Of a DNA stretch of 21,911 nucleotides, positions 8,098-8,283 are shown piece after piece (within the stretch, counting starts at the first letter, position 1; every line of letters begins with the position of its first letter). Under the pieces are notes generated by a model. That model saw only the letters and a list, made by a program, of their open reading frames with translations. It was not told the DNA's origin and ran no database searches. The translations under genes and the position numbers were made by a program. Source of the stretch: a virus; IMG/VR virus record IMGVR_UViG_3300029319_000584, positions 1 through 21,911 of that record, one strand, 5' to 3'.

Positions 8098-8283
8098 GGT
8101 TGGCAGCCAAGGGGTGAGGCTCATCCTTTCGGAATAAGTCTGGCCCACTTATGGCTACAACGGGCTTTTGAAAGAGGGGCCGGAGAGCCTAGGGGGACTC
8201 TCCAGCCAATTCGGGTTGTGTTAGACCCGATAGGAAGGGACTGTCTTGCTTTGCTAGACGTTATCTATACTATACGGCAATAC
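8098..8283 (+). ncRNA. Structured leader RNA upstream of terL (candidate, unnamed)
   Basis: Hand folding finds nested and linked helices. P1 pairs TTGGC (8100-8104) with GCCAA (8205-8209), extended by two G-U pairs. CTTTC (8126-8130) pairs with GAAAG (8170-8174) and encloses a hairpin ATAAGT/ACTTAT (8134-8139 / 8147-8152). Its loop contains GGCCC (8142-8146), complementary to GGGCC (8177-8181), a possible pseudoknot. Further hairpins are GGAGAG/CTCTCC (8182-8187 / 8198-8203) and TCGGGT/ACCCGA (8211-8216 / 8225-8230). The region is open in the terL frame, but it has no codon logic and no ribosome binding site. It could be a cis-regulator of terL, a packaging RNA, or a separate ncRNA. I do not recognise an Rfam family. 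Confidence 0.5.

Follow-up and report, generated by a model that had tools for sequence, protein, structure and literature searches.

A structured, noncoding RNA of 186 nt (positions 8098–8283, + strand) extends from a TATAAT box to the start of terL, the gene for the terminase large subunit, in the window, i.e. the whole 21,911-base viral record analyzed here. From the comparison of sequences, this RNA is best explained as a genuine element that acts in cis within the 5′ leader of the terL mRNA and belongs to a single clade of marine phages, a reading to which we assign a probability of roughly 0.55. The region is noncoding, lies directly upstream of terL on the same strand in a conserved position, and carries compensatory changes, the latter drawn from only three distinct sequences. 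It was first picked out in a sequence-only reading as a folded, terL-linked leader of no known class, and that description holds, with corrections to some details. Neither of the two outcomes named there as refuting it, a lack of compensatory changes or evidence of coding, was observed.

The late-strand genes of the phage begin with terS, encoding the terminase small subunit (Terminase_2, PHROG 51; 7440–7856, +), followed by 427 gene-free bases, terL (PHROG 38, Terminase_6N/6C; 8284–9807, +), the portal gene and the head genes; the leader is the final part of the terS–terL gap. Most of the neighboring genes have a Shine-Dalgarno motif but none is present before the terL start at 8284. Coding by the leader itself is ruled out, given that indels of 1, 2 and 4 nt in the relatives shift the frame and that one of the homologous leaders (L002) has stops in all frames.

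The upstream part of the gap has features of its own. Immediately after terS, at 7856–7877, there is a hairpin resembling an intrinsic terminator (GGCCC/GGGCC followed by TTTT) that is absent in L002 and L087. The motif AGGAGTCCCRC occurs at 7907–7919 of the window and in the terS–terL gap of L002, L087, L004 and L109; in several relatives, this conserved DNA is present in two copies and is followed by an ACATAyATATATAC-like sequence. The motif could be a packaging or terminase-binding site.

The structure of the leader was derived by hand, with the pairs checked in three sequences. It consists of a three-way-junction domain (8099–8161), a series of hairpins and a 3′ tail, all on the + strand. 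The domain includes the outer stem P1a (8099–8102/8158–8161), P1b (8105–8109/8152–8156), P2 (8110–8117/8121–8128) and P3 (8135–8139/8147–8151). The P3 loop (8142–8146, GGCCC) pairs with 8162–8166, closing a pseudoknot beside the base of P1; all five pairs form in all three sequences, with one compensatory change (C-G to U-A in L002). Downstream lie the hairpin P5 (8178–8207, with the strands 8178–8180/8205–8207 and 8182–8187/8198–8203), which was aligned by hand and partly automatically and shows two compensatory changes in L002 (C-G to U-A and A-U to G-C); the hairpin P6 (8211–8230), UCGGGU/ACCCGA, with an invariant core; and the hairpin P7 (8243–8259, with the strands 8243–8246/8256–8259 and 8248–8249/8253–8254), with two compensatory pairs. 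An A/U-rich tail that lacks a Shine-Dalgarno motif and contains the invariant CUAUACUAUA (8260–8283) leads to the terL ATG. The sequence-only reading had recognized at least four helices and an enclosing stem, which are indeed present, the stem beginning at 8099, and had assigned the 8142–8146 loop to a pseudoknot; the loop can form one, but the partner then proposed, 8177–8181, is replaced by 8162–8166, because it makes only four of the five pairs in L002, two of these being wobbles, and overlaps P5.

Beyond the window, two independent homologous leaders were identified by a TerL search and a hairpin pattern, one in L002 (the same as L003, in two assemblies), with a TerL that is 93% identical to that of the window, and one in L087. 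The comparison thus involves no more than three different sequences, of which two are closely similar. In the automatic alignment, 95.1% of the pair cells are kept in the homologous leaders, compared with 31–45% when the partners are slid, and the covariation score is reached by 4 of 500 shuffles; this alignment misplaces part of P5, which was therefore aligned manually so as to suit the fold. Four pairs are doubly changed in the automatic alignment and five in the hand alignment, namely 8145:8163 in the pseudoknot, 8180:8205 and 8184:8201 in P5, and 8244:8258 and 8245:8257 in P7. With the alignment fitted by hand, three broken pairs are seen in L002 against 12 expected when substitutions are placed randomly (P = 0.00025), and the random-substitution test for double changes, on the alignment fitted in the same way, gives P = 0.014 for L002 and P = 0.002 for L087. 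Four more pairs (8102:8158, 8111:8127, 8114:8124 and 8115:8123) have one-sided changes that yield G-U on the + strand only and A/C mismatches on the other strand, which makes an RNA of the + strand more likely than either a DNA palindrome or an RNA from the minus strand. Taken from these comparisons, the conserved fold is very probably real.

Thermodynamic stability was dropped as evidence. The folding energy of 8098–8283 (z about −2.7) is ordinary for the contig, where 9% of the + strand segments reach z ≤ −2.5, and the minimum-energy fold of the single sequence differs from the fold supported by the comparison. Elsewhere in the window, unusually strong RNA structure is predicted within the coding region of the capsid gene (15478–15897; z of −5.2 at 15608).

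The TATAAT box at 8092–8097 (+), found exactly where the sequence-only reading had located a promoter, is invariant in the three homologues and might serve as a −10 element. The promoter claim as such is weak: a search upstream of the box found no −35 near consensus, and in L087 about 23 nt are deleted where the −35 would lie, so that the sequence there becomes TGTTATAAT, an extended −10. Furthermore, a −10 in this position would place the transcription start near 8104, inside the outer stem, and leave the first strand of P1a (8099–8102) untranscribed; accordingly, either transcription starts further upstream or P1 consists of P1b only.

The leader RNA is restricted to one marine phage clade. 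A covariance model recovers the RNA in the records of this clade, once per carrying record, always directly upstream of terL and in the same orientation, but yields no credible match among about 160 TerL loci, 23 whole viral records, seven cellular genomes and 787 genomes from two orders; a single 54-nt match, with E = 0.0015 in a set of 390 genomes, is what chance would be expected to produce. Five scans of viral contigs with DNA patterns returned only L087 and L002/L003/L052, of which L052 and L002 are one contig, and a TerS query retrieved no further homologues. The relatives with 83–85% identical TerL (L004–L016, L108 and L109) have a short gap with no such RNA. The end of the terS–terL gap in these relatives (TTKACA, AAAATTTT, CCATTT) matches the window, by eye, up to about 8054, which implies that the module comprising TATAAT and the leader is extra, either gained here or lost there. 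In Rfam 15, no family matches at the gathering threshold, the only hit being a chance one to mir-9168 (20 bits compared with the cutoff of 100), and a search of the open-licence literature found no paper describing this leader.

The most likely role of the element, as we infer it, is control of the amount of TerL. The fold would act in cis on the terL message of which it is part; the likeliest way would be to restrict or gate the loading of ribosomes and/or to shield the 5′ end of that message. Few copies of TerL are needed, and its production would in this way be kept to a defined level or a defined time. The junction–pseudoknot domain may be bound by a ligand or protein. The terL starts of the relatives without the leader also lack a good Shine-Dalgarno motif, so weak initiation of terL need not depend on the RNA. 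Some common modes of leader action were rejected. A transcription attenuator or terminator riboswitch does not fit, as no intrinsic terminator (stem plus U-run) was found in 8098–8283, and neither does a riboswitch that masks a Shine-Dalgarno motif, given that there is none to mask; a conserved helix sequestering the start codon was not found either, the start-codon region being half unpaired (mean unpaired probability of about 0.5 in all three homologues). Little has been written on structured leaders of packaging genes in phages. Should TerL indeed be controlled by the fold, the leader would be a compact, testable example, from uncultured marine phages, of a packaging motor under RNA control, and the covariance model provides a means of looking for more such leaders.

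Among the alternatives to a cis-acting leader, the one that fares best, although itself unlikely, is a trans-acting small RNA, transcribed or processed as a stable, separate molecule that acts on other messages, on a host factor or, in the manner of pRNA, on the packaging motor. The compact pseudoknotted domain with its hairpins, the linkage to the terminase and the size, close to that of the phage pRNA (the phi29 pRNA is similar in length to the 186-nt leader), all agree with such an RNA. However, the leader does not end in a U-run terminator, directly precedes terL, with the same orientation, in all records, has no match among the Rfam families and is missing in the relatives with 83–85% identical TerL. 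The last observation also bears on the suggestion of the sequence-only reading that the RNA might act in packaging itself, for which no evidence was obtained: these relatives do without the RNA, which hence is no general part of the motor. It appears highly improbable that tailed phages not belonging to the phi29 group make, from the terL leader, an RNA that takes part in packaging or binds the terminase.

It is also improbable, somewhat more so than a trans-acting RNA, that the conserved feature is a DNA-level element, such as a pac or cos site or operator palindromes, with inverted repeats that only resemble RNA hairpins. Packaging sites often lie between terS and terL, where the leader is located; by z-score, the fold of the minus strand is no weaker than that of the + strand; and palindromic ACTTANTAAGT repeats occupy the same place in a different clade of phages. 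The strand-specific G-U replacements and the compensatory pair in the pseudoknot speak against such an element, as does the absence of the leader from relatives in which the conserved DNA upstream of it (the AGGAGTCCC region) is present.

Upstream regions of terL in other phages were inspected as well. In L113, L121, L124, L128, L130, L132 and L136, a TATAAT-like box is followed by palindromic ACTTANTAAGT repeats up to terL; these repeats are probably operator sites. The terL upstream regions of L113, L124, L128, L130, L132 and L136 reach z-scores down to −5.4, but the possibility that structured terL leaders recur in these phages was rejected, and generalization to other clades dropped, because no convincing common RNA fold could be aligned and the palindromic repeats were found instead. 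In L115 and L116, a strong hairpin, GGAAAGGGCGCgagaGCGCCCUUUCC, adjoins the upstream side of the terL start.

On a par with the DNA element in its low probability is a nascent-RNA antiterminator like HK022 put, which would fold on the RNA polymerase and cause read-through of later terminators in the head operon. The location of the leader just after a promoter-like box, as in putL (PMC9378689), its GC-rich hairpins and the extension of the operon over many kilobases suit such a function, but the stretch from terL to the capsid gene showed no strong + strand terminator. Moreover, behind the capsid gene comes a GC hairpin, which in L002 is a clear intrinsic terminator, and then a fresh TATAAT unit; transcription thus seems to begin anew there instead of reading through. 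The arrangement in L002 agrees with a division of the late genes into several transcription units. The Rfam Mu-gpT-DE RNA is found at 16138–16190 of the window and, on the minus strand, at 1753–1804 of L269; in both phages, it lies on the downstream side of the capsid gene, which is Mu gpT-like. This RNA contains TATAAT (16150) and follows the GC hairpin, and the Rfam motif may include the promoter of the next unit.

Least probable of all is a small regulatory upstream ORF (ATG at 8096, 13 codons) with incidental folding: the frame is open in all three sequences (MVGSQGVRLILSE, MVDSQRVQLILSE and MVDSQRILVLSE) and the single indel in it is 3 nt long, but nearly all differences change the amino acid, there is no Shine-Dalgarno motif, the ATG overlaps the supposed −10, and the pairing 3′ of 8138 is left wholly unexplained.

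Several known systems partially resemble the terL leader. The phi29 pRNA, likewise a phage RNA, resembles the leader in its length, its junction and its link to packaging; unlike it, the leader sits before terL, has no Rfam match and is missing in close relatives. The CBASS-activating cabRNA of staphylococcal phages is also a structured RNA from the terS/terL region, but its templates are the terS and terL genes themselves, with a transcript length of about 400 nt or under 50 nt, and the cabRNAs of different phages show no sequence homology (PMC10686824), whereas the leader is intergenic and has a conserved fold. HK022 putL and putR are phage leader RNAs located directly downstream of a promoter, and put acts in cis; put, however, is about 70 nt long, folds into two stem-loops and is present in two copies in early operons (PMC9378689), in contrast to the single leader of about 186 nt before terL, with its three-way junction and pseudoknot, and membership in the put group was rejected on these grounds, the architecture being different. 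With the structured leaders of bacteria, such as riboswitches and ribosomal-protein leaders, the RNA differs in having no Rfam match and no detected terminator or Shine-Dalgarno-masking switch, but shares the 5′ leader position, the combination of a junction with a pseudoknot, and the presence of several hairpins. Within a kind that is already known, the structured phage leader, it is a candidate for a new, narrow RNA family.
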